From Terriglobus roseus (GTDB lineage: Bacteria > Acidobacteriota > Terriglobia > Terriglobales > Acidobacteriaceae): a stretch of DNA of 64,000 bases. Under the pieces are notes generated by a model that did no database searches, was not told where the DNA came from, and was given only the letters and a program-made list of their open reading frames with translations. Shown piece after piece: positions 15,998 through 47,700 of the stretch (the stretch's first letter is position 1; every line of letters begins with the position of its first letter). The stretch covers positions 930,001 to 994,000 of the forward strand of contig NZ_FNSD01000001.1 in the NCBI RefSeq assembly GCF_900105625.1. The letters run 5' to 3'. The position numbers and the translations under genes are program-made.

Positions 15998-16050
15998 TCA
16001 GCCCCGACTCCCAAACGCTCCCCGATGAAGCGCTTGCCCGATTTCTGTGC

Positions 16051-16080: not shown

Positions 16081-16157
16081 TGCCGCGCTTGGAATCACAA
16101 AAACGTTTCGTGGCGAAGCCGTCTCCCCCAGCCGGCTTTGTTTCTTTGAGGAGCTTT

Positions 16158-30843: not shown

Positions 30844-30858
30844 CTCAAATTTCCTGTA

Positions 30859-31671
30859 TTAGACCAGTGCGGTGAAACGCTCGACGACCTTAGTCAAGAC
30901 CTCATTGCCGGGCGTATCCCATAGCGCCTGGTTAAAGATCTCAACTTCAATGGGGCCGTTGTAGCCGGCGGCGTCGACGGCGAGGCGCAGTGCGCGATTG
31001 TCGATGACGCCATCGCCCATGACGCCGCGGCCCAGCAGCGTGTCCGGCAGCGGCACCAGCCAGTCGCAGGCGTGAAAGCCGAAGATGCGGCCTGCGGCGC
31101 GTTGGATCTGTTCAAAGACGGTGGGATCCCACCAGATGTGAAAGACATCGAGGATCAGACCCACTTCGTCCGCACTATAGGGCGCGGCCATGGCGAGTGA
31201 CTGGTCGATGGTGTTTAGGACAGATCGGTCGCCTGCGTACATGGGGTGCAGCGGCTCGAGGCCAATCTTGACGCCCTGTTCGCGTGCGTACGGCACCAGC
31301 TCCGCAAGACCGTCCGCGACCATCTGACGTGCGTCCGCGATGGGCACTTCCGTGGAGGCGCCGACGACCAAGACGAGCGAGTCGGCGTTGAGTTCCTTCG
31401 CTTCTTCAACTGCGCGGAAGTTGTCCATGATGCGCTCTTTGCGCTCGGCAGCGGAGGGCGCGATGAACATGCCGCCGCGGCAGACGCTGGAGACGTGGAG
31501 GCCCGCGTCGCGTACGTGTTGCGCGCTCTGCTGCAGGCCTGCCTCATGAATTTTGTGACGCCAGAGAGCGATGGAGGGAATGCCGTGGCGGACACAGCCG
31601 TCCACGGCTTCCTTCACACTCCAGTTCTGCACGGTGGCCTGGTTCAGGCTCAGCCTTTGGATATCGGCCAT
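30859..31671 (-). CDS. Sugar phosphate isomerase/epimerase family TIM barrel protein
   Basis: Xylose-isomerase-like TIM barrel of 270 residues, cytoplasmic. Metal-binding regions characteristic of the family are seen in LVLVVGAS, IGLEPLHPMYAGDR, VGLILDVFHIWWDP and FGFHACDW, and the final glutamate in GPIEVEIFN. The family includes inosose dehydratases, hydroxypyruvate and tagatose epimerases, and enzymes that act on 3-keto-glycosides, so function is not fixed. It is separated by only three bases from the stop of the Gfo/Idh/MocA gene, a pairing that often marks sequential oxidation and isomerisation of a sugar. Confidence 0.87.
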   Translation of the reverse strand: MADIQRLSLNQATVQNWSVKEAVDGCVRHGIPSIALWRHKIHEAGLQQSAQHVRDAGLHVSSVCRGGMFIAPSAAERKERIMDNFRAVEEAKELNADSLVLVVGASTEVPIADARQMVADGLAELVPYAREQGVKIGLEPLHPMYAGDRSVLNTIDQSLAMAAPYSADEVGLILDVFHIWWDPTVFEQIQRAAGRIFGFHACDWLVPLPDTLLGRGVMGDGVIDNRALRLAVDAAGYNGPIEVEIFNQALWDTPGNEVLTKVVERFTALV

Positions 31672-31674
31672 GCG

Positions 31675-32850: not shown

Positions 32851-32883
32851 GTGCTGTTTGTCCTTATGCGAGTAATGCCGTGA

Positions 32884-34170: not shown

Positions 34171-34272
34171 GAGCAATCTCCATATTCGGCAGTCAGCAAA
34201 AGGCCGGGAGTACCGCTGCCCAGCCTCTTCATCGTCACTCGCAGAGTTTTGCCAACCACGCTAAGGCAAAAC

Positions 34273-34302
34273 CGGCAGCGAAGCCATGGTACTTCGCTGC
34301 CG
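34273..34302 (-). terminator. Terminator after TonB receptor 2
   Basis: Perfect 11-bp stem CGGCAGCGAAG / CTTCGCTGCCG with an 8-nt loop. On the minus strand it is followed by GTTTTG. It lies 21 bases past the receptor stop and before the MFS operon. Confidence 0.8.
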
Positions 34303-34322
34303 TTGGTAGAAGACGGTCCAAT

Positions 34323-37300
34323 TTAGAACAAAATGCGGCCGCCCACCTGGATGATGCGGTTATTACCAGACGTGCTGGTGACCTTGCCGTAGTTGGTGTT
34401 GTTGGCAACGGAGGTAGGCTGGCCGAGGTTGGTGAGGTTGAAGACGTTGGTGGATTCTCCACGGATCTGGAACTTGAGCCCTTCGCCATGGAGCGGGAAG
34501 TCCTTGAAGATGGAGGCGTCGATGTTGCGGTAGCCGGGGCTGTCGAGCGTGGATGCGCGGAAGTTGCCGAGGAGGCCAAGCGGGCCGACACCGGGGCAAC
34601 CTGCGTCCACACCGGGACGGCAGAAGGCCGAGGTATCGAACCACTGGTTCATGGCGGTTGCGCGCGAACCATTGTTGTCCAGGACGCGGGGTGTCTTGCC
34701 CGGGACGACGCTGACACGGTTGTTGCCGTTGCCGGAGAAGTAGTTGTCCACGCCGGTGGTGATGGTGAAGGGCTGGCCGCTGTTTGCAGTCCAGATGGCG
34801 GTGATCGTCCAGCCGTTGGCGAAGTAACGGACGGCATGGTTGAAGTTGTCGAAGTAGTCAGGCTTCCAGACGATGGTGGCCGTCATCATGTGGCGACGAT
34901 CCTGATCGGAACGCTGACGGGCCTCGAGCTGGGGATAGTTGTTGTCGACGAAGACGCCGTTCATGCCGCCCTGGTTGTTGAGGTTATTGCTCTGCAGCGT
35001 CTTGCTCCAGGAGTAGTAGCCGCGTGCGCTGACACGGTGGGTCAGGCGCTGTTCGACTGTTACCTGCAGGCCGTTGTAGTTGGAATTCTGGTTCGACCGG
35101 ATGATGTAGACCTGGCTGTATAGCGGATTCGCAGCGGAGGCCCCGAACTGCGAGTTCAGCGGACGGCGGTTGTTGACCGTGTTGCTGTTGTTGGCGTAGC
35201 CGCAGGCCTTGGTGAGATCCGTGCAACTGGCACCGCTGGTCCCCGCAGCCGTGATGTTGAACTGTGGACCGTTGATGTCGTTATAGAGCGGCAGCTTGCG
35301 GTTCAACGATCCGACGTAGTACGCGCTGATCGCGAGTCCCTTGGTCAGCTGGTGCTGGAAGCCTGCGTTGATCTGGATGGAGTATGGCCACTTGTAGTTG
35401 GGGTCGAAGGCCACGACCTGGTTCAGCGGCAGGAAGGTTACGTTGCCATCTCCCTTGTAGCTGAGTGCTGGATAGGGATTGGTTCCCGTCGGGAACTCCG
35501 TGGGATCGCCCTGATAGGGGTGCGTGAGCGAGACGACCTTGTTGTAGGTGTTGCGGACGGCGTACGGCGCAAAGTTGGATGGGAACTCCCACTCGTTGCC
35601 TGATATCCCGCCGAAGAAGAGGCCTGCGGCGCCGTGGAAGACCGTCGTCCCTCTGCCGCCCGGATCGTAGGCAAAGCCGAAGCGCGGCGAGAAGTGATTC
35701 TTCGGTGTGAAGACGCCACCGCGCGGCACGCCCGGGTCACCCGGAAACTGAAGGCCAACGGGTGCGAGCTGCGGGCCTGTCTTGCCGACGATGTTCACGT
35801 TGGGGAACGCATGCGACTGCGCGCCGGGAACGAAGTTTGTCTGGCGTGACAGGGGCTCGGTCGGTGCCTGCTGCCAGTCATACCGAAGTCCGAGGTTCAG
35901 CGTAAGGTTGCTGAGGATCCGCCAGTCATCCTGCGCAAAGACGCCGTAGTTGAAGTAGCTTGCGTTCGCATATAGGCCCGTGTCCTGGGCCATAGTGGCA
36001 GGGACGCCCGCCAGAAAGTCCGACAGACCATTGGTGGTGCGAGCGCCGGAAGCGCCGTTTGTGGTGGAGAAGGTGAAAACACCGTAGTTGGACAACGAGG
36101 TGAGCTGGAAGTCTTTCTCCAGACCTGCCTCACCACCGACGTAGAGAGAGTGCTTACCGCGGGTTGTCGCCAGCACGTCGCGCACGTTGTAGACGTTAGA
36201 ACCCGCTTTGGGACCGGTGATGGCCTGGCCGAGGGTGAAAGCCTCTACGCCGCCGACGGCGATCTGGCCGCGCGAGGGCGTGCCAACGACTCCGAAGTCT
36301 GAGCCGAAGTCGGCCAGGGTGCTGTTGCCCGGAACCGGGTTGCGGCCGCCGTTCTGGCGCGTGTAGCCGACGAAGAACTGGTTCACGGTACGGTCGCTTA
36401 CCGTCCAGGTTTCGCCAACATTCGCGTTCTGCTGCTTGTTCGCGTAGTCGGAATAGGACCAGGCCTGCGTAAAGGTGCTTGGAACGCTGCGAACCTTGTA
36501 GTCCAGCATGAAGTAGCTCAGCGTCAGACGGTGCTTTGCCGCGATCTGGTGATCGGTCTTGATCAGGTATTCGTTGTTCTGCTCCGGCAGCGGAGAACGT
36601 GTCCGGTAGGTGTACTGGGTGTCGCCAAACTGCGCGGGCTGCTGGGTGGGCAGATTTGCGCGGATGTACTTGAGGATATTGACGGCGGTGGGGTCTACCG
36701 TGGGTAACGTGTTGTTCGCATACGGGAGGCCAGTCGCCGGGTTGCAGACCAGGAAGTGTACCGCCGTGTTGGCTGCTGCCGTTGGCGTCGCTTTGCAGTT
36801 GGCCTGCTCGGCAGCCGTCGGGGTGTTCTCAGAGAAGTTGCCAGCCTGTTGCGCCAGGCTGGGCAGGCTGCCACTGTAGTTGCCGTACTGGATGAAACGG
36901 AATGCTGCGGCGCTGGCGAAGAAGAAGTCCTTGTCATGCCGGATGGGGCCGCCCACCGTTCCGCCGAAGCGGTGCTGGTTGTAAGGGTTCTTGCTGCCCT
37001 GAAGGTGGGTCGTCGCGTTAAAGTTACGCGACCGGTAGAACTCGAAGGCCGATCCGTGGAACTTGTTCGTACCGCTCTTGGTGATAACGCTGACCACGGC
37101 AGACGAATACTTGCCGAGCTGGGCACTGTAGTTGTTCGTCACCACGTTGAACTGGCTGACGGCATCCGGGTTCGGCACCGCGTTGCCGCTGTTGCGCAGG
37201 CCGGTCATGTTCAGACCGCCGTCCAGGTAGTACGAGGTCTGCCCCACCAGGCTGTCCGCTGCGCCATTGACGAGCACGTGCAGTTCCTGGAATCCGAGGC

Positions 37301-37817
37301 TGTTGGACGTCTGCACGCTCTGAACACCAGGTACCAGTTGCAAAAGGCGGGTCACGTCCCGGTTGATCAGGGGCAGATTGTCGATCTCGACGTTGTCGAC
37401 CGTGTTGCCCAGAGTGGAGTTGCCAATGTTGATCAGGGGGACGTCGCTGCTGACGTTGACGGTGTCCGCGGCGCCGCCAATCTCGAGGGCCAGGTTCACC
37501 TCTGCGTTCTGCATGACGGAGAGAACGACCCCGGAGCGCTCCAGTGTTTTGAAGCCGGCCGAACTGACGGTGATCTTGTAGGGTCCAACCGGCAAAAACT
37601 CTACGTGATAGCTGCCGTCTTCCTTGGCAGTGATCTTGCTGCTGAAGTTCGTTTCCGTCTGCGTGAGGGTGATGCTGGCGTTCGGGATCGCGGCGCCGGA
37701 AGCGTCGCGGACAACGCCGAACATGGTCGCGGTACTAAGCTGTGCGGACGCGGCCCCGCCGGCGGTCGCGCAAAGCACCAGGGCAGATGCTGTCCCCAGG
37801 ATTCTGTTGATCTTCAT
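34323..37817 (-). CDS. TonB-dependent receptor with carboxypeptidase-regulatory-like domain (2)
   Basis: Oar-like outer-membrane receptor of 1,164 residues. A signal peptide ends at GGAASAQ; the CarboxypepD_reg domain covers about residues 28-115 (GVVRDASGAAIPNASI, then EFLPVGPYKITVSSAG); the plug has ELHVLVNGAAD and SYYLDGGLNMTG; the barrel ends NRIIQVGGRILF. The ATG at 37817 has GGAGAG eight bases upstream and starts the signal peptide, whereas an upstream ATG at 37880 would bury it. Divergent from the membrane-anchored regulator at 38103. Only distantly similar to receptor 1. Substrate unknown. Confidence 0.93.
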   Translation of the reverse strand: MKINRILGTASALVLCATAGGAASAQLSTATMFGVVRDASGAAIPNASITLTQTETNFSSKITAKEDGSYHVEFLPVGPYKITVSSAGFKTLERSGVVLSVMQNAEVNLALEIGGAADTVNVSSDVPLINIGNSTLGNTVDNVEIDNLPLINRDVTRLLQLVPGVQSVQTSNSLGFQELHVLVNGAADSLVGQTSYYLDGGLNMTGLRNSGNAVPNPDAVSQFNVVTNNYSAQLGKYSSAVVSVITKSGTNKFHGSAFEFYRSRNFNATTHLQGSKNPYNQHRFGGTVGGPIRHDKDFFFASAAAFRFIQYGNYSGSLPSLAQQAGNFSENTPTAAEQANCKATPTAAANTAVHFLVCNPATGLPYANNTLPTVDPTAVNILKYIRANLPTQQPAQFGDTQYTYRTRSPLPEQNNEYLIKTDHQIAAKHRLTLSYFMLDYKVRSVPSTFTQAWSYSDYANKQQNANVGETWTVSDRTVNQFFVGYTRQNGGRNPVPGNSTLADFGSDFGVVGTPSRGQIAVGGVEAFTLGQAITGPKAGSNVYNVRDVLATTRGKHSLYVGGEAGLEKDFQLTSLSNYGVFTFSTTNGASGARTTNGLSDFLAGVPATMAQDTGLYANASYFNYGVFAQDDWRILSNLTLNLGLRYDWQQAPTEPLSRQTNFVPGAQSHAFPNVNIVGKTGPQLAPVGLQFPGDPGVPRGGVFTPKNHFSPRFGFAYDPGGRGTTVFHGAAGLFFGGISGNEWEFPSNFAPYAVRNTYNKVVSLTHPYQGDPTEFPTGTNPYPALSYKGDGNVTFLPLNQVVAFDPNYKWPYSIQINAGFQHQLTKGLAISAYYVGSLNRKLPLYNDINGPQFNITAAGTSGASCTDLTKACGYANNSNTVNNRRPLNSQFGASAANPLYSQVYIIRSNQNSNYNGLQVTVEQRLTHRVSARGYYSWSKTLQSNNLNNQGGMNGVFVDNNYPQLEARQRSDQDRRHMMTATIVWKPDYFDNFNHAVRYFANGWTITAIWTANSGQPFTITTGVDNYFSGNGNNRVSVVPGKTPRVLDNNGSRATAMNQWFDTSAFCRPGVDAGCPGVGPLGLLGNFRASTLDSPGYRNIDASIFKDFPLHGEGLKFQIRGESTNVFNLTNLGQPTSVANNTNYGKVTSTSGNNRIIQVGGRILF

Positions 37818-37865
37818 GGTTGGCTCTCCAAAGGCAATCGGTTCGCCCGCCAGAGCGCCATCACT

Positions 37866-37876
37866 GCAAAATTTGC
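37866..37876. promoter_or_regulatory. Small palindrome upstream of TonB receptor 2
   Basis: GCAAA-A-TTTGC, a perfect 5+1+5 palindrome, 49 bases before the receptor ATG in the 285-bp divergent gap. A plausible binding site for the neighbouring regulator; no second copy seen in the gap. Confidence 0.3.
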
Positions 37877-38013
37877 GCAACGGTCGGGGTTACTGGCAGG
37901 CGGGTGGCACTTCGCGGAAGGCGTACAAAACGTACGAGTAAGCCTGTCCATTACGCCAAACACCCTCTGCTCCGGCACAGTGAGGGGGCAAGTGACTCAC
38001 CGTTTGTCCCGCT

Positions 38014-38102: not shown

Positions 38103-39344
38103 ATGGTCATACAGAAGACAGATCGCGAACTTTGGGCGCCGGAGACGGACGCAGACCATAAATTCGTCTGGGCCGAGTTGGAAGGCGTACTGCACAGCCC
38201 CCAGTTTTCCAACAGCAAGCGGTATCCCGCCTTCCTCCGTTACGTCGTCGCACAGACGCTGGAGGGTCACGGTCCTCAGATCAAGGAACGGACGATCGGC
38301 ATCGAGGTCTTCGGCCGTCCAAGTGACTACGACACCAATAACGACACGGTCGTGCGGTATACGGCGGGTGAAGTCCGCAAGCGCCTGGCGACTTATTTCC
38401 ACGACCACGAAGACGCCGCGCTTGAGATCACCATCCCGCACGGGTGCTACGTTCCGGAGTTTCACCGCGCGATCGAGGCGGTTCCCATTGCTGAGGCCGA
38501 CGTTATACCAACGTTTGGCACGGTGACGACACCGCCGTACCCTGCCCTGACGTTACCCGCCGCAGCTCTCGTGGCGTCATCCGCACAGTGGCGGCGGTCG
38601 CTGCCGCTCTATGTATTACTTACGGTGATCGGCTTGGGACTCGGCCTGGCCATGGTCAGCCGTCGCGTTCAGGCTGCGCGAACCTCTGCGGTGGATCGTT
38701 TCTGGTCACCAGTGCTGCATGATCGCGGGACACCCCTGCTCGTGCCGGGGGTGGTCGTGTACTCGCCGAATCCATACTCCGGCACGGAAACTGCCACGAA
38801 AGAAGCCGAGTACCCCTTTGTCTCAGTCCAGGTCGCCGCGGCAACCGCGCGAATGAGCGGACTGCTGCAGAAGAATGGCAGCAGCTACCAGATGCAGCCG
38901 GCGAACACGACCACTCTGAGTGAACTGCGCGACCGTTCCGTCATCCTGATCGGCGCTTACAACAACCCATGGACCAGGCGCCTGCTTCAGGACACGCACT
39001 ATCGACTGGATGTCCCAACCACACCGGCCATCCTGAGTTCGTCGGATCCGCAACAGCATTGGCAGCGCGACCATACTCTGCCGTATGCCGCGTCCGATGA
39101 CTATGCCCTTCTGGGCCGCTTCCGGGATAAGACCACCGGCAGCCTGATCGTGGTGGTTGCTGGTCTCGGCCGCAATGGGACCGAGGCAGCCGCAGAGTTC
39201 CTGACGGACCCGCAGTACATGGCGGAGCTGGAAAAACGGTTGGGCAAGCCCATCGGCGATCAGAATATGGAAGCCGTGCTGAAAATCAGCGTTGTCGATG
39301 GCAAGACCGGCGCCCCATCGCTGCAGGCCGTGACCGTCTGGTAG
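38103..39344 (+). CDS. Membrane-anchored protein with putative N-terminal DNA-binding domain
   Basis: A 413-residue protein I cannot name exactly. Residues about 20-120 carry the pattern SKRYPAFLRYVVAQTLEGHGPQ, KERTIGIEVFGRP, DTVVRYTAGEVRKRL and YFHDH, an N-terminal module I know from many Acidobacteriota regulators that join a predicted DNA-binding domain to a membrane helix. One helix follows at about 160-182 (LPLYVLLTVIGLGLGLAMVS). The C-terminal half, outside the membrane, has no domain I recognise, but blocks such as GTPLLVPGVVVYSPNPYSG and VAGLGRNGTEAAAEFL suggest a sensor that binds something. Divergent from TonB receptor 2, which it may control. The start has no good ribosome site. 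Confidence 0.72.
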   Translation: MVIQKTDRELWAPETDADHKFVWAELEGVLHSPQFSNSKRYPAFLRYVVAQTLEGHGPQIKERTIGIEVFGRPSDYDTNNDTVVRYTAGEVRKRLATYFHDHEDAALEITIPHGCYVPEFHRAIEAVPIAEADVIPTFGTVTTPPYPALTLPAAALVASSAQWRRSLPLYVLLTVIGLGLGLAMVSRRVQAARTSAVDRFWSPVLHDRGTPLLVPGVVVYSPNPYSGTETATKEAEYPFVSVQVAAATARMSGLLQKNGSSYQMQPANTTTLSELRDRSVILIGAYNNPWTRRLLQDTHYRLDVPTTPAILSSSDPQQHWQRDHTLPYAASDDYALLGRFRDKTTGSLIVVVAGLGRNGTEAAAEFLTDPQYMAELEKRLGKPIGDQNMEAVLKISVVDGKTGAPSLQAVTVW

Positions 39345-39376
39345 ATGCTGCACGTCCGCCGCTGAGCGAATGCCCT

Positions 39377-41602
39377 CTACTCAACGACTCTAGGACGATA
39401 GTTGTTGCCCCACTGCGATGGCCGTGCGCCCATGACGAAATGCAGCGTGCCTCCCGCCTGGATTTGCTCCCAGGTGAGAACCGGCTTCTCCAGCGACGTG
39501 CCGTTCAATGAGGCGGACTTGATATAGACGTTCGTCTTTGAGTTGTTCTGAGCGGTGACGGTGAAGGTCTTGCCGTTCGCCAGCCTCAGGCTTATGTGCG
39601 GATAGATCGGCGAACCAATCATGTAGTCGCCGCTTGCCGGGTTCACGGGATAGAAGCCGAAGGATGTGAAGAGTAGCCACGCGGACATCTGGCCGCAGTC
39701 ATCGTCACCATCCAGACCACCGGGTCCGCTGCTGTATTCCTTCGCGGCGATCTCGCGCACCATGGCCTGTGTCTTCCAGGGCTGGCCTGCGAAGTCATAC
39801 AAGTAGCCGTAGTGGTGACTTGGCTCGTTCTTGTGAACGTTGTGGCCACCCTCGAAGTGCTTGTCGAGTTGCGATGCGTACTTCTGCGGGCCACCCATCA
39901 GGCGCATCAGACCGGCCTGATCGTGAAACATGCTGAAGGTGTAGACCCACGCATCGCCCTCGGTCCAACCCGATACGGAGCGATTCTCGTTCGTGTCCTC
40001 GCTGCCGCCGATGGGTGCCCACTTGCCATCGCTGGTGCGAGCATTCATTAAGGAAAGCGCAGGGTTGAAGAGGTGCTCGCCGTTGAGCGACCGATGCAGG
40101 AAGAACTTGTAGTCGTCGGTCTTGCCGAGTGCATGCGCCACCTGCGCCACGCACCAGTCGTCATAGCTGTCCTCCAGCGTGCGGCTGGCGGCTTCGTCTG
40201 TCTTGTCCGTGGGGATGTAGCCGAGCGTCTTGTAGTACGTCAGGCCCGCACGCGCTTCGTAAGGCGTGTGCTCTTCCCTGTCCAGCCAGCGGCGCGTGGT
40301 ATCGCCATCGGGAGGAGACATAGCATCTTTATAGACCGCCTTCCACGCCAGTTCACGATCGAAGCCGTGGAAGCCTTTGCGGATGGCTTCTGCCACAAGC
40401 GAGTCAGCATGTGTGCCGATCATGATGTTGGTGTAGCCCGGGTTCGGCCACTTCGGCATCCATCCGCCTTCTTTGAAGTTCTGCAGCAGCGCGGTGATCA
40501 TCCCGTCCACACGCTCCGGCGCGAGAAGCGTGATCAGGCTGTTCTCGGCACGGAAGGTGTCCCAGATGGAGTAGGCGGTATAGCTCTCGCCGGTATGAAT
40601 CGTGTCGTCGAAGGCGCTGTAGTAACGGCCATACTCTGAGAACTGCCGCGGGTACAGCAGAGCGTGGTACATCGCGGTGTAGAGCATGGTCTTGTCGCTG
40701 TCACTCGCCGTCACCTGCAGACGTTGCAGCTTGTCATTCCACTGCGCACGCAGCTTGCGCTGCGTTGCGTCGAAGTCCCACGTGGGGATCTCGCGCTGCA
40801 GATTTTCGCGGGCCTGGTCGATGCTCAGGAACGAGGTGCCGACCCGCATCTCAACTTCCGACCTGGGTGCGAACTCGACGTACGCGCCACGGTAGGCGTT
40901 GGAGTCGTTCTCGCCGTAGGTCTTGCCTGCGCGCGGCACCTCACGGAACTGCACAACGAAGTACCCCTTGAACGACGGCAGCGCGGCTGCGCCCTTGTCC
41001 GGCCCCAGGTGCGCATCCATGCGATGCGGGTTGTAGCCCGTGATCTCATGCTTCTGTAAGTCGACTTTGGCAGAGCCGTTGATTCCGGGCCGTGAAGCTT
41101 CGACGAGAATTCGCGCAACGCCCGTCTTCGGAAAGCGAAAGCGCATTAATGCGGCGCGGTCGCTGCCCGTCATCTCCGCATGCAGGGACGAAGCAAGCGT
41201 GACGGCGTAGTAGTCCGGCCGGGCTGTCTCGTCTTCGTGGCGAAAGGCGACGGCGCGCTCTTCCGGCCTGGTGCGAAGTGCACCGGACTGCGGCACGATG
41301 GTGACGTAGCCATAGTCGCCCATCCACACGGCGGGCTGGTGTGTGCCGATGAAGCCGCTGATGGTCTTATCGTCGTAGTTATACGACGTGATGCTGATCT
41401 TGTTCTGCCGGGTCTGCGCGACCCAGCTGGTCATGCCGAAGGGTGCCGTCACAAAAGGCATCGTTGCGCCGTAGCCGATGGCGCTCTTCTGTGTCCCGAT
41501 CAAGGGATTCACATACGAGACAGCGTCACGCTGTGCTGTGACAGCAACGGCTGCGCCGCGTGCGCTGAGCACGAGCAACAAAAGGCAAAGAGCTTTCTTC
41601 AT
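39377..41602 (-). CDS. Secreted GH92 family alpha-mannosidase
   Basis: Glycoside hydrolase of 741 residues with a signal peptide (MKKALCLLLLVLSARGAAV). GH92 features: VSYVNPLIGTQ at the mature N-terminus, FVTAPFGMTSW, MGDYGYVTIVPQ, then the catalytic domain with TAYSIWDTFRAENSL, NRSVSGWTEGDAWVY and GLDGDDDCGQMSAW, the calcium and acid/base region. GH92 enzymes are exo-acting, calcium-dependent, inverting alpha-mannosidases. ATG 41602 has GAGG about seven bases upstream; an upstream start at 41638 would put residues before the signal. It follows the phospholipase C gene by 71 bases on the same strand, so mannose removal from a mannosylated inositol lipid is a testable idea; N-glycans or mannans are the conventional targets. 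Confidence 0.93.
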   Translation of the reverse strand: MKKALCLLLLVLSARGAAVAVTAQRDAVSYVNPLIGTQKSAIGYGATMPFVTAPFGMTSWVAQTRQNKISITSYNYDDKTISGFIGTHQPAVWMGDYGYVTIVPQSGALRTRPEERAVAFRHEDETARPDYYAVTLASSLHAEMTGSDRAALMRFRFPKTGVARILVEASRPGINGSAKVDLQKHEITGYNPHRMDAHLGPDKGAAALPSFKGYFVVQFREVPRAGKTYGENDSNAYRGAYVEFAPRSEVEMRVGTSFLSIDQARENLQREIPTWDFDATQRKLRAQWNDKLQRLQVTASDSDKTMLYTAMYHALLYPRQFSEYGRYYSAFDDTIHTGESYTAYSIWDTFRAENSLITLLAPERVDGMITALLQNFKEGGWMPKWPNPGYTNIMIGTHADSLVAEAIRKGFHGFDRELAWKAVYKDAMSPPDGDTTRRWLDREEHTPYEARAGLTYYKTLGYIPTDKTDEAASRTLEDSYDDWCVAQVAHALGKTDDYKFFLHRSLNGEHLFNPALSLMNARTSDGKWAPIGGSEDTNENRSVSGWTEGDAWVYTFSMFHDQAGLMRLMGGPQKYASQLDKHFEGGHNVHKNEPSHHYGYLYDFAGQPWKTQAMVREIAAKEYSSGPGGLDGDDDCGQMSAWLLFTSFGFYPVNPASGDYMIGSPIYPHISLRLANGKTFTVTAQNNSKTNVYIKSASLNGTSLEKPVLTWEQIQAGGTLHFVMGARPSQWGNNYRPRVVE

Positions 41603-41673
41603 CAGGTGCCTCACGGGCAAGACTGCGCCCTGCTCCACCCTCGCGGACAGAGCAGGACGAATCTACAGGATTG

Positions 41674-42837
41674 TTACGGGTGATGCTGTACCGATGGCTT
41701 GCCGGCACTCTTCGCACCGGGCTCAAGCAGGTCTTCCTTGCACGTCTTAGGCGCACTGATGGGATTGCAGCGAACGGGCATGCCGTCCGGGAATCCGACG
41801 GAATATCCACTCCAAACGGATGGCTCGGAGAGCGGATAGTCCGTGCTGATCATGGTGGCACCGCTGCTCAGAACTTCATCACGGCGGGTGGTGTTGTTGT
41901 CACGCGCAGCAACCGTCCCTTCGTCTGTGCGTGTGCGCACGATGAAGCCCTGCTTAATGACAGCATCGATCTCTGCCTGTGTACCGCCGTTCATCTCCAC
42001 AAAAGCGGCATCGGGCTCGCTGGGAATGGCGTGGGTAAACAGCACGCGACCCTTGAGGTTGGGATGGCCTTCCAGGTAGACCGGGCTCGCGTTGCGTTGA
42101 TCCATCAGGAAGATGACCTTGCCGCGCGACTCAGCCAATGTGGGCCAATGGCCGGCGAGAACAGCTTCGCGCAGCGTGGGATAGGAGCCTCGCACCTGGT
42201 CCGGAAGGATCATCTCCTTATCGGAGAAGACAGAACGAATTTCCTTGTCGAGCGCGTCGAACTCAGTCTTCGTCCAAAGCGGAACATCCACGCCGCCGGG
42301 CATGTTGCTCTTGCCGCTCTTATTCTCAATCAACAGAAACAACGGCACATGGTTCGGGTGCGCCTTGGACCAGTCACGCACTTGCTTCAGGCACTCCGTG
42401 AAGAGCGGGCAGGAAGACCGCTGATTCAGATCCTGCACATGGATCACCTTGATGCCGGGCTTCTCCATCTCGTGCTTCGGGTCGAAGTACGGATCTTCCG
42501 GCAGTCCCTTTTCCTTGGTGATGCGAAGGATGCTGGGATGTGCGAAGCGACCACCCTGCGGATCCGGGAAGACATCGATCTCGAGCTGGCGCACACCACC
42601 GTCCAGTTGATTGGCAAGCGACTTGTGCGAGTATTCCAGCGACTCGTACGACTTCGGCTTCACGGACTTGAGGTACGCAGCTTCACTCGGAGCAAAGCCC
42701 AGGTTGTAGCTGTTGTGCGATCCGATGACCTGGATCTGATTCAGCTTGAGCGTCTTGTCCTGCTGCGCGGCGTCCTGCTTGCTTTGTGCGGGTAATGCTG
42801 CGGCCACGGCCATTACTGCAAGTGCGAATAGCTTCAC
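41674..42837 (-). CDS. Secreted Ca2+-dependent phosphoinositide-specific phospholipase C
   Basis: Product of 387 residues with a signal peptide (LFALAVMAVAAALPAQS) when started at GTG 42837, which has AGAAGG ten bases upstream; the frame stays open to 42894. The family (PI-PLC-C1 type, first known from Streptomyces) is shown by QIQVIGSHNSYN with the catalytic histidine, DGGVRQLEIDVFPDP with acidic metal ligands, FAHPSI, VIHVQDLNQRSSC and LFLLIENKSG. These enzymes split phosphatidylinositol into diacylglycerol and inositol phosphate. Next to it lie a myo-inositol oxygenase (upstream) and an alpha-mannosidase (downstream), which fits use of the inositol head group. An inositol phosphatase, needed to link the two steps, is not in the window. 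Confidence 0.88.
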   Translation of the reverse strand: MKLFALAVMAVAAALPAQSKQDAAQQDKTLKLNQIQVIGSHNSYNLGFAPSEAAYLKSVKPKSYESLEYSHKSLANQLDGGVRQLEIDVFPDPQGGRFAHPSILRITKEKGLPEDPYFDPKHEMEKPGIKVIHVQDLNQRSSCPLFTECLKQVRDWSKAHPNHVPLFLLIENKSGKSNMPGGVDVPLWTKTEFDALDKEIRSVFSDKEMILPDQVRGSYPTLREAVLAGHWPTLAESRGKVIFLMDQRNASPVYLEGHPNLKGRVLFTHAIPSEPDAAFVEMNGGTQAEIDAVIKQGFIVRTRTDEGTVAARDNNTTRRDEVLSSGATMISTDYPLSEPSVWSGYSVGFPDGMPVRCNPISAPKTCKEDLLEPGAKSAGKPSVQHHP

Positions 42838-42922
42838 GGGAACTTGTCCTTCTACTGCGAATTGGGAGAACGCGGAGCGAACGAGCTGCTCCACGCGCTA
42901 GTCTGCACGGCCAAGGTTAAAA

Positions 42923-42935
42923 GATGACTGTCATC
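42923..42935. promoter_or_regulatory. Palindrome upstream of the phospholipase C gene
   Basis: GATGAC-T-GTCATC, a perfect 6+1+6 inverted repeat, 86 bases before the phospholipase start, between it and the oxygenase terminator. A possible operator; differs from the LacI-type sites at 43917 and 46500. Confidence 0.4.
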
Positions 42936-42953
42936 GCTGGGAACATCGGGCGC

Positions 42954-42982
42954 CAAAAAGCCCCGACAAAAATCGGGGCTTC
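42954..42982 (-). terminator. Rho-independent terminator after the inositol oxygenase gene
   Basis: On the minus strand, AAGCCCCGA / TCGGGGCTT forms a 9-bp stem with a 6-nt loop followed by TTTTT. It lies 23 bases past the oxygenase stop, so the phospholipase C gene needs its own promoter or read-through. Confidence 0.92.
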
Positions 42983-43004
42983 CGGCGATGCGTACCGACC
43001 GTAC

Positions 43005-43868
43005 TTACCAGGCGAGCTTCTCCGGGAAGAACTCCGCGAACAGATCGTCGTAGTACGGCTTCAGTTCGGCCAGGTTCGGCTTGGTGTGGCCCTTCGAGTA
43101 CAGGTCGTACGGGTTGAACTTGAGCACGGACGGCAGCATGGCACGGTCCTGCTCGTTGCACAGATGGTCATACGCTCCGTGGCGGTGCCACGCGTAGAAC
43201 GAGTGGTAACGCAGCATGTAGAGCGCTTCCATCGGCAGGTAATTCTTCATGACTTCGTAAATGTAGCCGTCATGGCCGAAGCTCATCTTGACCTTGTCCA
43301 GACCGCAGTTCGGCTCGTAGATGCCGTACTTCGTCTGGAACACCGGGTTGTTGTAGTCCGGGTTGGCCTTGAAGTACTCCGGGAAGACCACCTGGTCGGA
43401 ATACGCGCAGCCAGTCGGAAAGGTGTCGCCCACAACGCCCCACTGCGGTTCACCGTAAAGGCAGAGACACTTGCCCAGGTCATGCACGAAACCCGTTGCG
43501 ACCATCCAGCGCGGCTCGTTGTTCGCGCGCATGGCTTCGGAGGTCTGCAGCAGGTGCTCCATCTGCGTGAGATCCGTATCGGGATCGCTGTCATCGACGA
43601 GGGTATTGAGGAACTCTGCGGCTTCCCAGATGCTTTTCATCCCGCGCTTCAGGCCGAAGTATTCCTTCTCCTTGCCTAGGACGTACTCATGCGTCTGGAA
43701 CTGGTGGTTCAGGCGATAGAACTCGGCCACACCGGGGTTCGCCTCAGCGTCGTACTGGCGGAACTCCGTCTCGGTCTTGCCTTCCTTGTAACGACCTTCC
43801 AGAAACTCATCCCACTCATCCATATCCCCGAGAGGGTTATGTGCCGGCGTCGCAACTGCTGTGCTCAT
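43005..43868 (-). CDS. myo-Inositol oxygenase (MIOX)
   Basis: Converts myo-inositol and O2 into D-glucuronate at a mixed-valent di-iron centre. The 287 residues match the animal enzyme in length and order, and every iron ligand is in place: H105 in EHLLQTSEAMR, H129-D130 in FVHDLGK, H199 in MSFGHDGY, H222 in RYHSFYAWH and D255 in FNPYDLYSK. GEPQWGVVGDTFPTG is the signature substrate loop. Cytoplasmic, no signal peptide. Bacterial MIOX is uncommon compared with the inositol dehydrogenase route. The gene has its own promoter with an operator-like palindrome over the -10 box, lies directly after a LacI gene, and ends at a strong terminator. Confidence 0.96.
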   Translation of the reverse strand: MSTAVATPAHNPLGDMDEWDEFLEGRYKEGKTETEFRQYDAEANPGVAEFYRLNHQFQTHEYVLGKEKEYFGLKRGMKSIWEAAEFLNTLVDDSDPDTDLTQMEHLLQTSEAMRANNEPRWMVATGFVHDLGKCLCLYGEPQWGVVGDTFPTGCAYSDQVVFPEYFKANPDYNNPVFQTKYGIYEPNCGLDKVKMSFGHDGYIYEVMKNYLPMEALYMLRYHSFYAWHRHGAYDHLCNEQDRAMLPSVLKFNPYDLYSKGHTKPNLAELKPYYDDLFAEFFPEKLAW

Positions 43869-43916
43869 GGCGAAACTCCTTCAATGCCCCGGCGGGGCGG
43901 CGTCACCCGGGTGGCT

Positions 43917-43932
43917 TAGTTAGCGGTAACTA
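43917..43932. promoter_or_regulatory. LacI-type operator O1, at the myo-inositol oxygenase promoter
   Basis: TAGTTAGCGGTAACTA: 14 of 16 positions palindromic around a central CG, resembling the GTTACCGGTAAC operators of LacI-family gluconate/sugar repressors. It overlaps the -10 box, so bound repressor would block transcription. A near-copy (13 of 14) lies at the permease promoter (46500). The LacI gene between the two sites is the obvious candidate binder. Confidence 0.75.
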
Positions 43933-43958
43933 TACGCAGACTGAAGAATCATTCGCAA
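43929..43958 (-). promoter_or_regulatory. Promoter of the myo-inositol oxygenase gene
   Basis: On the minus strand TTGCGA (43953-43958), 18-bp spacer, TATAGT (43929-43934), 60 bases before the oxygenase ATG. The -10 box lies inside the operator at 43917. Confidence 0.6.
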
Positions 43959-43992
43959 GCATTTCCACAAATTATTTAGGCGAGGTTTTTCT

Positions 43993-45003
43993 CTACGAAA
44001 GGACAGTAGATTCACGCTGAATCAGCCGCGGCTCCAGCAAAACGCTGCTTGCCGCAAGTTCTGGATTCGCAACGAGTTGCAGAGCCAACTCACCTGCCCG
44101 GGCGCCAAGCTGCTGCGTATCGTGGTCGATTGAGCTGAGTGGCGTCTTCAGGTAGGTGGCGTACCGCATGTTGCCGCAGCCGACGAAGGCGACATCCTGC
44201 GGAATCTGAAGACCAGCCTCACGCGCGGCCTCCATAGCACCAATGGCCGTCAGATCGTTGTAGCAAAACACGGCATCCGGACGAGGCTGCGCCTTCAACA
44301 GCTGCTGCATAGCGGCATGACCCTGGCTGTCGCCAGTCTCTTCGAACCGTTCCAGCGTCAGAATAATGCTTTCGTCGACTGGCAAGCCGCTCTTCGCCAA
44401 CGTGTCCCGATAGCCGCGCATGCGTTCCAGCGATGGACTCATATCGCGGCCGCCGATATGGGCGATCCGGTGACGGCCAATGTCGATGAGGTGCTGCGTG
44501 GCCATGCATCCGGCCTTGTAGTCGTCCGACCCTACAAAGTGCGCGGCCAGGTACGGAAAGTTGCGGTCGATCAACAGGTAGGGCGTGCGCTCGTCGCCAA
44601 GTTCGTAGAAGCTCTTGAGCTTTGGCTGGCATGACGCAATCAGCAGAACATCCACGCCGCGGCTCATCAGCGTGCGAATCTCCTGCTGTTCAATCTCCGG
44701 ACTCTCTTCCGAGGATGCGATCAACAACGCCCGCTGGCTGGCGCGCAGCACGCCGGAGAGCGACTTGGCGAACTCCGCGAAGAAGGGGTGGACGAGATCC
44801 GGCACCACGAGACCCACGGTGAACGTCTTGCCGCTTGCGAGTCCACGGGCAAGCATGTTGGGCTGATACTTCAATTCCGCCATGCGCTTGAGCACGCGCG
44901 CGCGGGTCTTCTCACTGATGTCGGAATTACCGCGCAGTACCTTCGACACCGTGACGGTGGAAACGTTCAGATCGCGAGCGATATCTTTGAGCCGGACAGC
45001 CAC
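43993..45003 (-). CDS. LacI family transcriptional regulator
   Basis: Repressor of 336 residues, the standard LacI length. N-terminal helix-turn-helix and hinge: VRLKDIARDLNVSTVTVSKVLRG, then YQPNMLARGLASG; the periplasmic-binding-like effector domain follows (TVGLVVPDLVHPFFAEF, VLLIASCQPKL, FVGCGNMRYATYLKTPLSSIDHD). The start is GTG at 45001-45003 with AGGAGA four bases upstream. It lies between the permease gene (gap 65 bases) and the oxygenase gene, same strand. Two matching palindromes at the promoters of those genes make it their likely repressor, with the inducer perhaps inositol, glucuronate or another sugar. Confidence 0.94.
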   Translation of the reverse strand: MAVRLKDIARDLNVSTVTVSKVLRGNSDISEKTRARVLKRMAELKYQPNMLARGLASGKTFTVGLVVPDLVHPFFAEFAKSLSGVLRASQRALLIASSEESPEIEQQEIRTLMSRGVDVLLIASCQPKLKSFYELGDERTPYLLIDRNFPYLAAHFVGSDDYKAGCMATQHLIDIGRHRIAHIGGRDMSPSLERMRGYRDTLAKSGLPVDESIILTLERFEETGDSQGHAAMQQLLKAQPRPDAVFCYNDLTAIGAMEAAREAGLQIPQDVAFVGCGNMRYATYLKTPLSSIDHDTQQLGARAGELALQLVANPELAASSVLLEPRLIQRESTVLS

Positions 45004-45068
45004 ATGCTCTCCTGGTACGAGTGCGATGCTGCCAGTCTATCTTCCTGCCGCAGCCCCGTCAGACGCCA

Positions 45069-46280
45069 TTACGAGAAGCGCGTCTGACGATGCAGCCGAT
45101 AGGTGGCATAGCCAAGGCTGCCGAACAGGATGGCCACCAGGATGGCGATCCAGCGGTAGTTCATGGCAAAGGGAGGCACGACCGCTCGCGACCCAAGGAA
45201 GATAAAGAACCCCGTGGCAACGATCACGATGGCATAGTCCCACCAGCGTTTGCGCTCCGAGCGATCTCCGAATTCATCACCGGCCTGCGCCAGCAGCGTC
45301 TCGCGATAGTCCAGGCCGTAGCGCGAGCACTCGCGTTCCAGTGCGCGATTGCGCGACGAGTGTTCATTGACCGACGCCTTGGCCGTGCTGATAAAGAGCG
45401 CACCAAGGATCATGATCACGGATCCGCCGGCAACCAGCAGCTTGTGCTGCAGATCCGCGTGAGCAAGTTCGCCAAAGACCAGCGCGCCCCACGCCAGCCC
45501 CCAGAGCTGATTCGTATTCGACAACGGGATGCCGCGGCCGATGCCGACATACTTCGTCGCAAACTGTTGGAACAGATCGCCGATGACCCAGACGAACCCG
45601 CCAAGGAACAGCCAGAACACCATGGAACTGCTGTGCGCCAGTTGGAAGGCAGAGGAATGTCGACCGCCATCCAGCGTCCAGGTGAGCAGGAAGACCGTGA
45701 GTAGTTCGCCCACGGTGAAAGCCGTCACAAAGGACAGCGGATTCATGCCGCTCAGATACGCCTTGCGATACGGCACATACATGGTGCCCCACATAAAGCT
45801 GGCGCCAATGGCCGCGAGCACGCCGCCGAGCGCGTTGTGCCCTGTCGCCGTTACGCCGCCGTGGATGGTGCTGAAGCCAAGCATGATCGCGGCCACAACG
45901 ATGCAGGTTCCACCAAGTACGACCTTGGTGATCGTTTTGCCGTCGGCGCCCTGCAGCTCGCGGAAGAGCAGGCGCCCCCACAGCAGGCCGATGAGGGAAT
46001 TGGTATTCCACATCGGAAAGGCGATGGCCAAACCGACGTCGCGAATCGCAAAGACGGTAAGCGTGTTCGCCACAGCCCACAGCGCTCCTGCCAGCAGCGC
46101 CCAAACCAGCAGGTGCTTGCGCGCCATCAGATCACGGAAGACGTAGCTCGTCCCCTTCAGCAGGGTTGGGAAGGTCCACCGCGCGGTGAAGACGCCGGCC
46201 ACCATGCAGAGCGAGATGGCGAAGGGCGAGAAGCCCGCCGTAACCAGCTTGGTAGGCGCTTCCGCCGCACCAAGCCACAC
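45069..46280 (-). CDS. Sugar permease of the drug/metabolite (RhaT/GRP) superfamily; start uncertain
   Basis: Inner-membrane carrier of at least 403 residues with ten or more helices (LLAGALWAVANTLTVFAI, PMWNTNSLIGLLWGRLLF, MWGTMYVPYRKAYL, LSNTNQLWGLAWGALVFGE). The layout resembles the rhamnose-proton symporter and glucose/ribose porter families. A polar segment (about residues 298-338) and two extra helices extend the C-terminus. The first usual start, GTG 46280, falls inside helix 1; in-frame sequence SLHGLGVLCGLTAG just upstream completes that helix, but no ATG, GTG or TTG occurs there, so initiation at a rare codon (ATC 46382 or CTG 46355), a frameshift or a sequence error must be considered. 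The LacI gene follows. Inositol or a sugar is the likely cargo, by context. Confidence 0.85.
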   Translation of the reverse strand: MWLGAAEAPTKLVTAGFSPFAISLCMVAGVFTARWTFPTLLKGTSYVFRDLMARKHLLVWALLAGALWAVANTLTVFAIRDVGLAIAFPMWNTNSLIGLLWGRLLFRELQGADGKTITKVVLGGTCIVVAAIMLGFSTIHGGVTATGHNALGGVLAAIGASFMWGTMYVPYRKAYLSGMNPLSFVTAFTVGELLTVFLLTWTLDGGRHSSAFQLAHSSSMVFWLFLGGFVWVIGDLFQQFATKYVGIGRGIPLSNTNQLWGLAWGALVFGELAHADLQHKLLVAGGSVIMILGALFISTAKASVNEHSSRNRALERECSRYGLDYRETLLAQAGDEFGDRSERKRWWDYAIVIVATGFFIFLGSRAVVPPFAMNYRWIAILVAILFGSLGYATYRLHRQTRFS

Positions 46281-46381
46281 ACCTGCCGTCAGGCCGCAGA
46301 GAACGCCCAGACCATGCAGAGAATTTGTTTTCGAAGATGAAGACTTGGTCGCCAGCGTCTTTGCCCGTTCGCCTGAGAAGA

Positions 46382-46471
46382 TTAGTGAAGCACGATGAGC
46401 AACGCAATACCGAGGCCGAGTACAACGACGGGAATCCAGAATTGCGCGTCCGTGAGGATCGCCTTTGCCAT
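46382..46471 (-). CDS. 29-residue hydrophobic peptide ahead of the permease gene
   Basis: ATG (46469-46471), 29 codons, TAA. The product is one predicted membrane helix: a short polar N-terminus MAKAILTDAQFW, then IPVVVLGLGIALLIVLH. It is the first ORF after a good promoter and the operator at 46500; the ribosome site is weak (GAGTAAG, seven bases before ATG). Its TAA directly precedes the stretch where the permease must start (TAATC), so coupling is possible. Small single-helix proteins are known to accompany some transporters, but I recognise no named family. A non-functional leader is the alternative. Confidence 0.55.
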   Translation of the reverse strand: MAKAILTDAQFWIPVVVLGLGIALLIVLH

Positions 46472-46499
46472 GTTGTTCTTACTCAAGCACTGCTCCCGC

Positions 46500-46513
46500 G
46501 TTACCGCTTACTA
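46500..46513. promoter_or_regulatory. LacI-type operator O2, upstream of the peptide-permease-lacI unit
   Basis: Minus strand TAGTAAGCGGTAAC differs by one base from the first 14 bases of the O1 site at 43917 (TAGTTAGCGGTAAC). It lies just downstream of the -10 box at 46521, where a bound repressor blocks transcription. Suggests that the LacI protein controls its own unit as well as the oxygenase gene. Confidence 0.7.
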
Positions 46514-46520
46514 CGCCGCC

Positions 46521-46550
46521 AAACTAGGCGTTCTCCGAAAGGCTTGTCAA
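46521..46550 (-). promoter_or_regulatory. Promoter of the peptide-permease-lacI unit
   Basis: Minus strand TTGACA (46545-46550), 18-bp spacer, TAGTTT (46521-46526), 50 bases before the small ORF. Identical boxes and spacing to the promoter at 16051. Divergent from the Rieske gene at 46595. Confidence 0.7.
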
Positions 46551-46594
46551 GGCCGATTATCCATTACCAGCATCAGAATGCCTGAGGTCACTTC

Positions 46595-46918
46595 TTGATC
46601 GTAAAGCTTTGTGCTGCGGAAGATCTGCCGTCCACCGGCGAATTGAAGTCCTTCCGCGGCGGAAACAATTTCGAGATCTGCGTCGCGCAACTGGAGCGCG
46701 GCGAACTTGTCGCCTTCGACAACCGCTGCCCGCACCAGGCTGCACCTCTCTCCGCCGGCCAGATGGAAGGCTGCCGCGTGATCTGTCCGTACCACGCGTG
46801 GAGCTGGGATGTCACCACCGGCAAGTCGGACAACGCGGCCGACCCGGACCTGCCCCGCTACGAAGTGAGGCGGTACGGCGACGAGGTGTTCATTCAGCTT
46901 CCGTCGGCCCCCCGTTGA
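46595..46918 (+). CDS. Rieske [2Fe-2S] ferredoxin-like protein
   Basis: Small electron-transfer protein of 107 residues, cytoplasmic. The two cluster-binding pairs are CPH (in DNRCPHQAAPL) and CPYH (in VICPYHAWSWDV), the CxH...CxxH arrangement of Rieske ferredoxins and NirD-like subunits. The start is TTG at 46595: GAGGT lies seven bases upstream, a stop codon in the same frame sits at 46583, and no ATG is available in between. Its partner oxygenase or reductase is not evident; the inositol oxygenase nearby is di-iron and needs no Rieske donor for turnover, so co-location may be chance. Divergent from the permease unit. Confidence 0.85.
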   Translation: MIVKLCAAEDLPSTGELKSFRGGNNFEICVAQLERGELVAFDNRCPHQAAPLSAGQMEGCRVICPYHAWSWDVTTGKSDNAADPDLPRYEVRRYGDEVFIQLPSAPR

Positions 46919-47700
46919 AGTGACAGACGAAGCGGAGGAGTCGATCAGGCGTCGTGACCATGGAGGAAGCAGTCGAGTCCTTCCCTCACCTCTTGCCGGT
47001 TTGCGAAGACAGGACTCACGGCTCGATCTCTATGATCAGACGTATCAGAACTACCTGGAACTGATGAGAGGGTACGAACCTCCGCATTGCGCGCATCGGG
47101 TTTGAGCACACCATCGCACTGCTTACGGGACAGGCTGAGTCATCCCGTGGCGCGCAAGTCGACAAGGGGCCGGTTCATCGAAGTTGTGGTCAACTTCTGA
47201 ACCTTCGCAATGACACACGATCAAATTTTCCGGTGGCCACGTGTCGTCGCAAGTCTCCGGGTTTGCGTCACGAGAGGGCGGCCGCTGACCGGCCAGCACC
47301 ACCTGAAAACGATCATGGTCGTTGAGGGCCCCACAGCCTTTGCACGTGATTCCAGCGGTGCACACCAGCCGGCAGCCGTGAGTCCCACCAAAGCGCCCTG
47401 GACCATGAATTCCAAATAGGTTGTCTGCGATTTCCCTTTATTAACGGGCTTTTCTAAGTTATTTCCAGCCTTACTTCCCTGCATTTTTGACGAATTATCT
47501 ACAACCTTAGAGTCAGGTTCGCGGAGAATATTTCAGAATTCCCGGCATTTCACATAACCCTTTTGTGAACCGTAAAAAGAGTGAGCAATATTGCACATAT
47601 CGCATTTGATGGCTCCCCTAGTTTTTTAGGTAGGTAAGAGCGGTCCCCCATGCGACGGGAGGAAATATCTCCTGAGCAGCTTCGGACGTTCGAGGTCATC
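46919..47700. other. Long intergenic region, 782 bp
   Basis: No convincing gene. A 61-codon GTG-start frame at 46920-47105 has no ribosome site or family resemblance. Composition changes to AT-richer after about 47400, where the promoter of the following lipoprotein gene should lie. Noted structures: a 6-bp inverted repeat ACGGGA/TCCCGT (47125-47148), palindrome GCAATATTGC (47585-47594) and a CCTA-TTTTTT-type small hairpin near 47615-47630. GAGG lies five bases before the ATG at 47701. Confidence 0.45.

Follow-up and report, generated by a model that had tools for sequence, protein, structure and literature searches.

A Predicted LacI-Controlled Regulon for Feeding on Inositol Phospholipids in Acidobacteriaceae

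Results

The window analyzed here, a 64,000-nucleotide stretch of a Terriglobus roseus genome (G000:C1:930001-994000, where G000 is the window's own genome of 4.81 Mb), carries on its minus strand five genes which, in the order of transcription, encode a RhaT/GlcU-type permease, a LacI-family regulator, a myo-inositol oxygenase (MIOX), a phosphatidylinositol-specific phospholipase C (PI-PLC) of the PI-PLC-C1 type and an enzyme of the glycoside hydrolase family 92 (GH92). We propose, with a probability of about two in three, that this locus forms the core of a regulon under LacI control through which Acidobacteriaceae exploit inositol phospholipids as nutrients. The proposal draws on gene content, conservation, operator-like sites, gene fusions and co-occurrence, from which we infer every activity, the ligand of the regulator and the direction of flow.

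Genes of the Locus and Their Conservation in Relatives

The oxygenase is an MIOX, as judged from its profile match and its metal ligands. Sequence comparison relates it to the solved inositol oxygenases 2ibn and 2huo, and its residues H105, H129, D130, H199, H222 and D255 align with the six iron ligands of the mammalian enzyme; all 76 distinct MIOX sequences compared, that of the window among them, have these residues. An earlier, sequence-only reading of this stretch had credited the protein with all iron ligands, which agrees with the alignment; its predicted activity is the conversion of inositol to D-glucuronate. The closest named relative found is the MIOX of Terriglobus roseus DSM 18391 (96% identical), whose locus (L032) has its genes arranged in the same way. 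The same reading had placed the five genes on one strand and had regarded GH92 and PI-PLC as secreted; profile matches, judged against the Pfam and NCBIfam cut-offs, bear out the gene set (Table 1), and both enzymes have N-termini that by eye look like signal peptides.

The PI-PLC matches PF16670 over the full length of the profile (1-329 of 329) and is similar over about 100 residues to parts of 3h4w and 5fyo, the former being the Ca2+-dependent PI-PLC of Streptomyces. An alignment of nine relatives points to the GTG at 42837 as the likely start, which gives the signal-like N-terminus VKLFALAVMAVAAALPAQS, and the gene of strain DSM 18391 begins at the matching position. The protein is a predicted secreted Ca2+-dependent PI-specific phospholipase C. 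The permease lies under the cut-off of TIGR00776 (41 bits against 319.6), and a sequence search for its solved relatives returned none.

The adjacency of PI-PLC and MIOX, on which the sequence-only reading had leaned, recurs in relatives. Among the 27 named MIOX loci compared, PI-PLC lies downstream of MIOX on the same strand in 11; by hand count, a TonB receptor stands between the two in 9 of these, and the complete permease-LacI-MIOX-receptor-PI-PLC series is present in 7. Terriglobus, Edaphobacter and Granulicella all have loci that combine MIOX with PI-PLC. Some of the named loci additionally hold a metallo-beta-lactamase-fold protein ahead of MIOX, a KduI/IolB-family protein behind it or a calcineurin-like phosphoesterase ahead of PI-PLC. 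The sequence-only reading had named the lack of a conserved neighborhood in relatives as a ground for its own refutation, and this ground does not apply. Enzymes linked to MIOX occupy two places on the PI-PLC tree: the Edaphobacter/Granulicella-type loci form one clade, and a second, less firmly supported group unites the window, strain DSM 18391, L034, L153 and L161, so that the link between PI-PLC and MIOX was made or kept more than once.

Genes of the glycerol-kinase type together with GlpD-like genes lie near MIOX in L043, L044, L047 and L074, as would be expected if diacylglycerol were used as well; when L047 was scored, its glycerol kinase was over and its GlpD-like protein under the cut-off. 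As separate observations, the metallo-beta-lactamase-fold protein is found just upstream of MIOX in L036, L038-L042, L068 and L156, and three DUF3738 proteins in a row are located between PI-PLC and a TonB receptor in L043 (13204-16268, plus strand).

Co-occurrence was assessed in a sample of 150 Acidobacteriaceae genomes and, at the genus level, in 66 genera; the per-genome association tests ignore relatedness. MIOX was found in 51 genomes, PI-PLC in 26 and both in 21, and all 11 genera with PI-PLC fall within the 20 that have MIOX.

A Predicted Operator Shared by MIOX, the Permease and the Receptor

A search for central-CG palindromes upstream of the locus genes yielded the sequence GTTANCGNTAAC. 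Of 73 distinct loci, 37 have it as an exact match at −150 to +120 relative to the called start of MIOX, and 39 have it there with no more than one mismatch; among 9480 random 270-bp windows of those loci, 95 reach the latter level. Only sites with at most one mismatch were used, because matches with two mismatches number 12 in the window when 11.7 are expected. The operator tracks the regulator: of the 50 analyzable MIOX loci in the family sample, 13 have a LacI homologue (more than 430 bits) no farther than 8 kb from MIOX, and the operator accompanies 11 of these 13 versus 6 of the 37 loci devoid of LacI (p = 2e-5).

The predicted operator is common to the upstream regions of MIOX, the permease and the receptor. 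The exact site in the window shares two bases with the −10 box of the predicted MIOX promoter, a usual position for a repressor. The promoter assignment itself is a guess from the consensus, as a scan of positions 39000-47000 gave one promoter-like site versus 2.3 on average in shuffled sequences, that is, no enrichment. Before the TonB receptor of the PI-PLC unit, an operator at the 1% level was found in 17 of 24 receptor rows of MIOX loci (rows of one genome being counted twice in places), and away from MIOX 4 of 18 rows reach this level (L117, L118, L141 and L112). Two of these, L117 and L118 from the window's genus, carry the exact operator at −46/−47 of a receptor-PI-PLC operon far from MIOX, which in L117 also holds the phosphoesterase, and in L141 LacI itself lies beside PI-PLC together with a one-mismatch operator. 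Such sites on unlinked receptor-PI-PLC operons would tie PI-PLC to MIOX in trans. A purely accidental adjacency of PI-PLC and MIOX is disfavored both by these operons and by the two places in the PI-PLC tree.

Several observations weigh against a single regulon. PI-PLC lies within 10 kb of MIOX in only 5 of the 50 family loci, leaving 45 (some cut by contig ends) that lack it at this distance, so MIOX probably also serves free inositol. None of the regions upstream of PI-PLC (70 rows) or GH92 (40 rows), those of the window's own two genes included, has an operator at the 1% level; the same is true of 14 of 18 receptors not located near MIOX, and a receptor-phosphoesterase pair elsewhere in the window's genome has no operator either. 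A terminator-like hairpin follows MIOX, before PI-PLC. The sequence-only reading had seen this terminator, and it is indeed present as sequence: the segment 42979-42950 folds with a minimum free energy of −32.4 (z = −2.27), although a simple scan did not list it. Since PI-PLC and GH92 lie beyond it, they may or may not be expressed jointly with MIOX in this strain. Moreover, 19 of 24 GH92s of the window's type with known positions lie away from both MIOX and PI-PLC, UxuA (mannonate dehydratase) was not found in the genome in a search that left out UxaA and UxaB, and the avoidance of the classical inositol route is weak by genome, with IolD in 2 of 51 MIOX genomes versus 17 of 99 others (p = 0.02), and absent by genus (p = 0.74), so that a mutual exclusion of MIOX and Iol was not used as support.

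The terminator and the absence of an operator before PI-PLC would suit two independent units, a permease-LacI-MIOX unit for free myo-inositol and a separate PI-PLC-GH92 pair scavenging phosphate or mannose, brought together by chance in this lineage; the permease homologue, kept within 3 kb of MIOX in 30 of the 50 family loci, is likewise a far steadier companion than PI-PLC. Against such a division stand the same partners, which accompany MIOX at two points of the PI-PLC tree, the receptor, which mostly lies between MIOX and PI-PLC and has the operator before it, and the two unlinked PI-PLC operons with the exact operator. We therefore consider two separate units unlikely and the common regulon the better account.

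Linkage and Fusion of GH92 to PI-PLC

The GH92 of the window scores 551 bits with PF07971 (cut-off 24.6) and 557 bits with NCBIfam aman2_put (TIGR01180, cut-off 249.6), and is over the cut-off of PF17678. It has the signal-like N-terminus MKKALCLLLLVLSARGAAVA and holds TEGDAW and GDDDCGQMSAW, which we take to be the acid and base motifs of GH92. Its closest solved relatives, 2wvy, 7zgm and 6f8z, include proteins deposited as alpha-1,2-mannosidases. Strain DSM 18391 has a GH92 gene 88% identical to it in the same place.

Within about 9.5 kb on either side of PI-PLC (less at contig ends), GH92 is encountered at 10 of the 39 full-length PI-PLC places of the family sample, whereas 1.1 would be expected from GH92 gene number and genome sizes, an estimate that ignores the clustering of carbohydrate genes. 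In four genomes the two enzymes form a single protein. The proteins of G145 and G057 comprise 1142 and 1127 residues, with a GH38 alpha-mannosidase and a TonB receptor adjoining, and a search with the fused GH92 confirmed two further fusions in G492 and G458, from a second genus. The fused PI-PLCs make up one clade (support 100/98), which fits a single fusion event. When, as a check, the 20 GH92s most like the fused one were taken from genomes outside the earlier comparison, 10 had PI-PLC next to them or fused to them, a number that includes two fusions whose long frames were visible beforehand and one PI-PLC broken over two frames; one more of the 20 lies near MIOX (L172, order LacI-MIOX-phosphoesterase-GH92). 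By hand count, fused-type GH92s in genomes with known PI-PLC positions are linked to PI-PLC in 8 of 16 cases and unlinked in the other 8, the one of the window's own genome being among the latter; 9 fused-type genes fell outside the neighborhood set. Beside a fused-type GH92 in L189 (11.4-12.6 kb, minus strand), a PI-PLC extends over two neighboring frames, which may be a sequencing error or a pseudogene.

A tree of 19 GH92s, mostly from such loci, contains three clades found beside PI-PLC or MIOX. The window's type occurs there in strain DSM 18391, in G373 (L153, order MIOX-GH92-LacI-receptor-PI-PLC) and in G131. By hand count, 5 of 24 genomes with known positions have it no more than 10 kb from MIOX or PI-PLC, two of these cases being at 8.7 and 9.9 kb and one being the window itself. 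The link between GH92 and PI-PLC is thus strong for the GH92 family as a whole and modest for the window's GH92. The fused type has TNEPGF where the window's type has HKNEPSHH; no substrate was deduced from this difference.

In PI mannosides (PIMs) and the fungal mannosyl-inositol-phosphoceramide (MIPC), alpha-mannose is attached to inositol, the 2-OH of which PI-PLC uses for its attack and needs free; mannosylated lipids are therefore attractive as substrates. We found no paper on this need for a free 2-OH in the open-licence literature. In a pathway dedicated to MIPC and PIMs, the alpha-mannosidase, which some species have fused to PI-PLC, would uncover the 2-OH, PI-PLC would cut, and the head would be dephosphorylated, imported and burned via MIOX under one LacI. 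Mannosylated inositol lipids are plausible, though unproven, substrates, and a pathway dedicated to them seems to us possible but rather doubtful. Of the claim in the sequence-only reading that such lipids are used, one part has gained weight, since GH92 and PI-PLC are neighbors or fused much more often than chance would give; its application to the window has not, as the window-type enzyme is seldom near PI-PLC or MIOX and lacks its own operator. Plant glycosyl inositol phosphoceramides (GIPCs) would be another candidate substrate by analogy, and glycosylphosphatidylinositol (GPI)-mannoproteins fit the fused loci at least as well; from sequence, the choice of substrate may not be decidable.

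The latter possibility can be extended to a system that dismantles GPI-mannoproteins or fungal mannan, with mannosidases stripping the mannan, PI-PLC cutting GPI anchors and inositol catabolism being secondary. It would account for the fused gene following a GH38 alpha-mannosidase and a TonB receptor in L139 and L140, for a phosphocholine-phospholipase-C-like gene nearby in L140 and for the absence of MIOX from the sequence retrieved on either side of the four fused genes, and GH92 is a general alpha-mannosidase family. GPI heads, however, keep glucosamine on inositol, so that free inositol for MIOX would not follow from them, and the operator ties some PI-PLC operons to MIOX. As the main role of these genes, GPI or mannan breakdown is thus improbable when set against the inositol-phospholipid regulon. 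Phosphocholine-phospholipase-C-like genes beside PI-PLC, at L140:11535-13064 (558.6 bits) and L143:10730-12184 (552.9 bits), both under the cut-off of 580, hint at a wider phospholipid degradation.

Candidates for the Phosphatase and Uronate Steps

The sequence-only reading had noted that an inositol-phosphate phosphatase is missing. This is true of the locus, since none was found among the five genes and two scanned neighbors, but a candidate stands beside PI-PLC in some relatives and elsewhere in the window's own genome. Apart from one inositol-monophosphatase-family protein, this genome encodes an exported-type metallophosphoesterase (C1:3869863-3870819) that is 66% identical to the relatives' phosphoesterase and directly adjoins a TonB receptor of the locus type (1980 bits, L164); the pair lies apart from MIOX-PI-PLC-GH92. 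A close homologue (at least 60% identity) occurs in 10 of 26 PI-PLC genomes. The family has an RRxF-type start and the motifs of calcineurin-like metallophosphoesterases. It is weakly like the 2',3'-cyclic phosphodiesterase SpdA (30.7 bits, cut-off 400); a sequence search for solved relatives gave none. Structural comparison of a predicted model (mean pLDDT 74) places it closest to acid sphingomyelinase and SMPDL3A, with a template modeling (TM) score of about 0.5 and 13-15% identity. We regard it as a candidate for the missing phosphatase. In L143 and L144 its slot is filled by a PHP-type protein, also present beside PI-PLC in L114 (the family was scanned on L144, whose protein scores with CehA/McbA metallohydrolases as well); that this is a phosphatase is a guess. 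Two unrelated kinds of hydrolase, calcineurin-like and PHP/CehA-like, between receptor and PI-PLC might suggest that phosphate is what is won from the lipids and carbon is incidental, which is very unlikely given that the LacI operator and MIOX accompany part of these units and that glycerol-kinase-type genes lie near MIOX in four loci.

For the step after MIOX, the uronate isomerase UxaC is found in 49 of 51 MIOX genomes versus 40 of 99 others, and by genus in 19 of 20 with MIOX versus 17 of 46 without it. The window's genome has its own UxaC (G000:C1:2740167-2741480; 563 bits, equivalog cut-off 387; closest solved relative 2q01), with no operator upstream. The surrounding stretch, L128 (G000:C1:2731000-2750999), also holds a GntR regulator, a UxaE-family epimerase and a nickel-dependent putative hexonate epimerase, with two large TonB receptors beside them. 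The best match to IolD in this genome reaches 272 bits (cut-off 715) in a search that did not extend to IolG/E/B/C. In L146 (3444-3455, genome G137), a one-mismatch operator-like site lies 72 bp upstream of the uronate isomerase, which may be a hint; the operator test on UxaC of L145 was not used, its strand being unclear.

Other Features of the Window

Table 1. Features of the window locus and the GH92-PI-PLC fusions of relatives
Feature	Coordinates	Strand	Evidence or remark
Permease, RhaT/GlcU type, predicted inositol importer	45069..46280	-	PF06800 Sugar_transport, 48 bits, cut-off 26.3
LacI-family regulator	43993..45003	-	PF00356/PF13377
Predicted LacI operator GTTAGCGGTAAC (palindrome GTTANCGNTAAC)	43919..43930	.	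exact match
Sigma-70-like promoter TTGCGA-18-TATAGT upstream of MIOX	43929..43958	-	consensus match only
MIOX	43005..43868	-	PF05153, 340 bits, cut-off 25
Terminator-like hairpin between MIOX and PI-PLC	42950..42979	-	stem GCCCCGA/TCGGGGC, then TTTTT
PI-PLC-C1, Ca2+-dependent, secreted (predicted)	41674..42837, open reading frame to 42894	-	PF16670, 452 bits, cut-off 29.9
GH92 alpha-mannosidase-family enzyme, secreted (predicted)	39377..41602, likely ATG start 41602, open reading frame to 41638	-	PF07971+PF17678, TIGR01180
Second, weaker operator-like site GTTACCGCTTAC	46500..46511	.	1 mismatch; between permease and divergent Rieske gene
Rieske ferredoxin, divergent from permease	46595..46918	+	PF00355, 64 bits
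GH92-PI-PLC fusion	L139:9026-12454	-	preceded by GH38 alpha-mannosidase and TonB receptor
GH92-PI-PLC fusion	L140:7961-11344	+	preceded by GH38 alpha-mannosidase and TonB receptor
GH92-PI-PLC fusion	L170:293-3760	+	long frame
GH92-PI-PLC fusion	L171:7881-11291	-	long frame

The Rieske ferredoxin, found in the same position in L032, L034, L059 and L060, may be an electron donor for MIOX or a member of the regulon. A TonB receptor between or beside the five genes is lacking both in the window locus and in that of strain DSM 18391. The two receptors encoded elsewhere in the window (16047-19643 and 34323-37880) were rejected as the receptor of the locus, as they score 332 and 275 bits compared to 1886-2254 in MIOX loci and 1980 in L164. 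The regulator-like gene at 38103-39344, which is distantly homologous (22-41% identity) to a gene that adjoins 14 PI-PLC loci, was not accepted as a locus member. A separate catabolic run on the minus strand (29473-37880) comprises a GH88 match under the cut-off, a xylose-isomerase-like TIM barrel, a Gfo/Idh/MocA oxidoreductase, a transporter resembling the major facilitator superfamily (by eye only) and a TonB receptor; its likeness to IolG and IolO is far under the cut-off.

Discussion

The data allow us to outline how such a regulon might work. Extracellular PI-PLC would cut off the head group, presumably as inositol 1,2-cyclic or 1-phosphate, and GH92 would remove alpha-mannose from mannosylated heads, which is possibly needed for the PI-PLC attack. 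The exported metallophosphoesterase would take off the phosphate, the TonB receptor would carry the product across the outer membrane and the permease would import inositol, to be opened by MIOX to D-glucuronate, which uronate isomerase would pass on. LacI would keep MIOX and the permease repressed as long as inositol, or a product, is absent. The inositol-lipid feeding locus that the sequence-only reading had envisaged has thereby gained conserved and fused partners, a shared predicted operator and a phosphatase candidate, while the mannose part for the window and the co-expression of its genes remain unproven.

Inositol lipids are widespread in fungi, plants and actinobacteria, and a regulon for their catabolism would be unusual in both its substrate and its entry route. 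If the proposal is true, the PI-PLC-phosphoesterase-receptor-MIOX regulon names enzymes of inositol-lipid recycling in a common soil family, MIOX gains a role in bacteria and an unrecognized inositol importer is predicted; in addition, the natural GH92-PI-PLC enzyme makes the question of substrate open to direct testing. Lipids of the inositol-phosphoceramide series are reported to amount to 5-10% of fungal membrane phospholipids (PMC12942302). The open-licence literature yielded no account of inositol-lipid recycling by soil bacteria, and within it (subscription papers and preprints lying outside) the PI-PLC-MIOX-GH92 combination appears in no title or beginning of an abstract. The parts belong to known families; as far as this literature shows, the regulon, the operator, the receptor-phosphoesterase-PI-PLC module and the GH92-PI-PLC fusion are new.

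Among known systems, a phospholipase C of the fungus Botrytis is reported to degrade plant GIPC, likewise acting on the inositol-phosphate head of sphingolipids; it is a fungal enzyme, and the available part of PMC11496612 describes no locus with MIOX or GH92. The MIOX of Cryptococcus neoformans is reported to serve growth on inositol as the sole carbon source (PMC2584100), and bacterial MIOX activity is reported for the Flavobacterium johnsoniae enzyme in a yeast screen (PMC12076931). In comparison to the eukaryotic MIOX pathway, the window locus has the same enzyme family and ligands, but it is bacterial and linked to lipases, and its glucuronate would be expected to run through UxaC/UxaE. 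The oxygen-using route of inositol breakdown via MIOX is best known from animals, plants and fungi, whereas the bacterial Iol operon (inositol 2-dehydrogenase, IolG/E/D/B/C) catabolizes myo-inositol with a dedicated regulator and importer. The window locus would share with Iol the catabolism of myo-inositol, a regulator and an importer, but would open the ring by a di-iron oxygenase to glucuronate. The PI-PLC is related in sequence to 3h4w and 5fyo over about 100 residues, and here it belongs, in relatives, to a receptor-phosphoesterase-MIOX set and is fused to GH92 in four genomes. Bacteroides possesses polysaccharide utilization loci in which GH92/GH38 alpha-mannosidases are combined with a TonB receptor. 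The TonB receptor and GH92 are common to both, GH38 is sometimes present here as well, and here PI-PLC shares the locus, or even the polypeptide, with the mannosidase.

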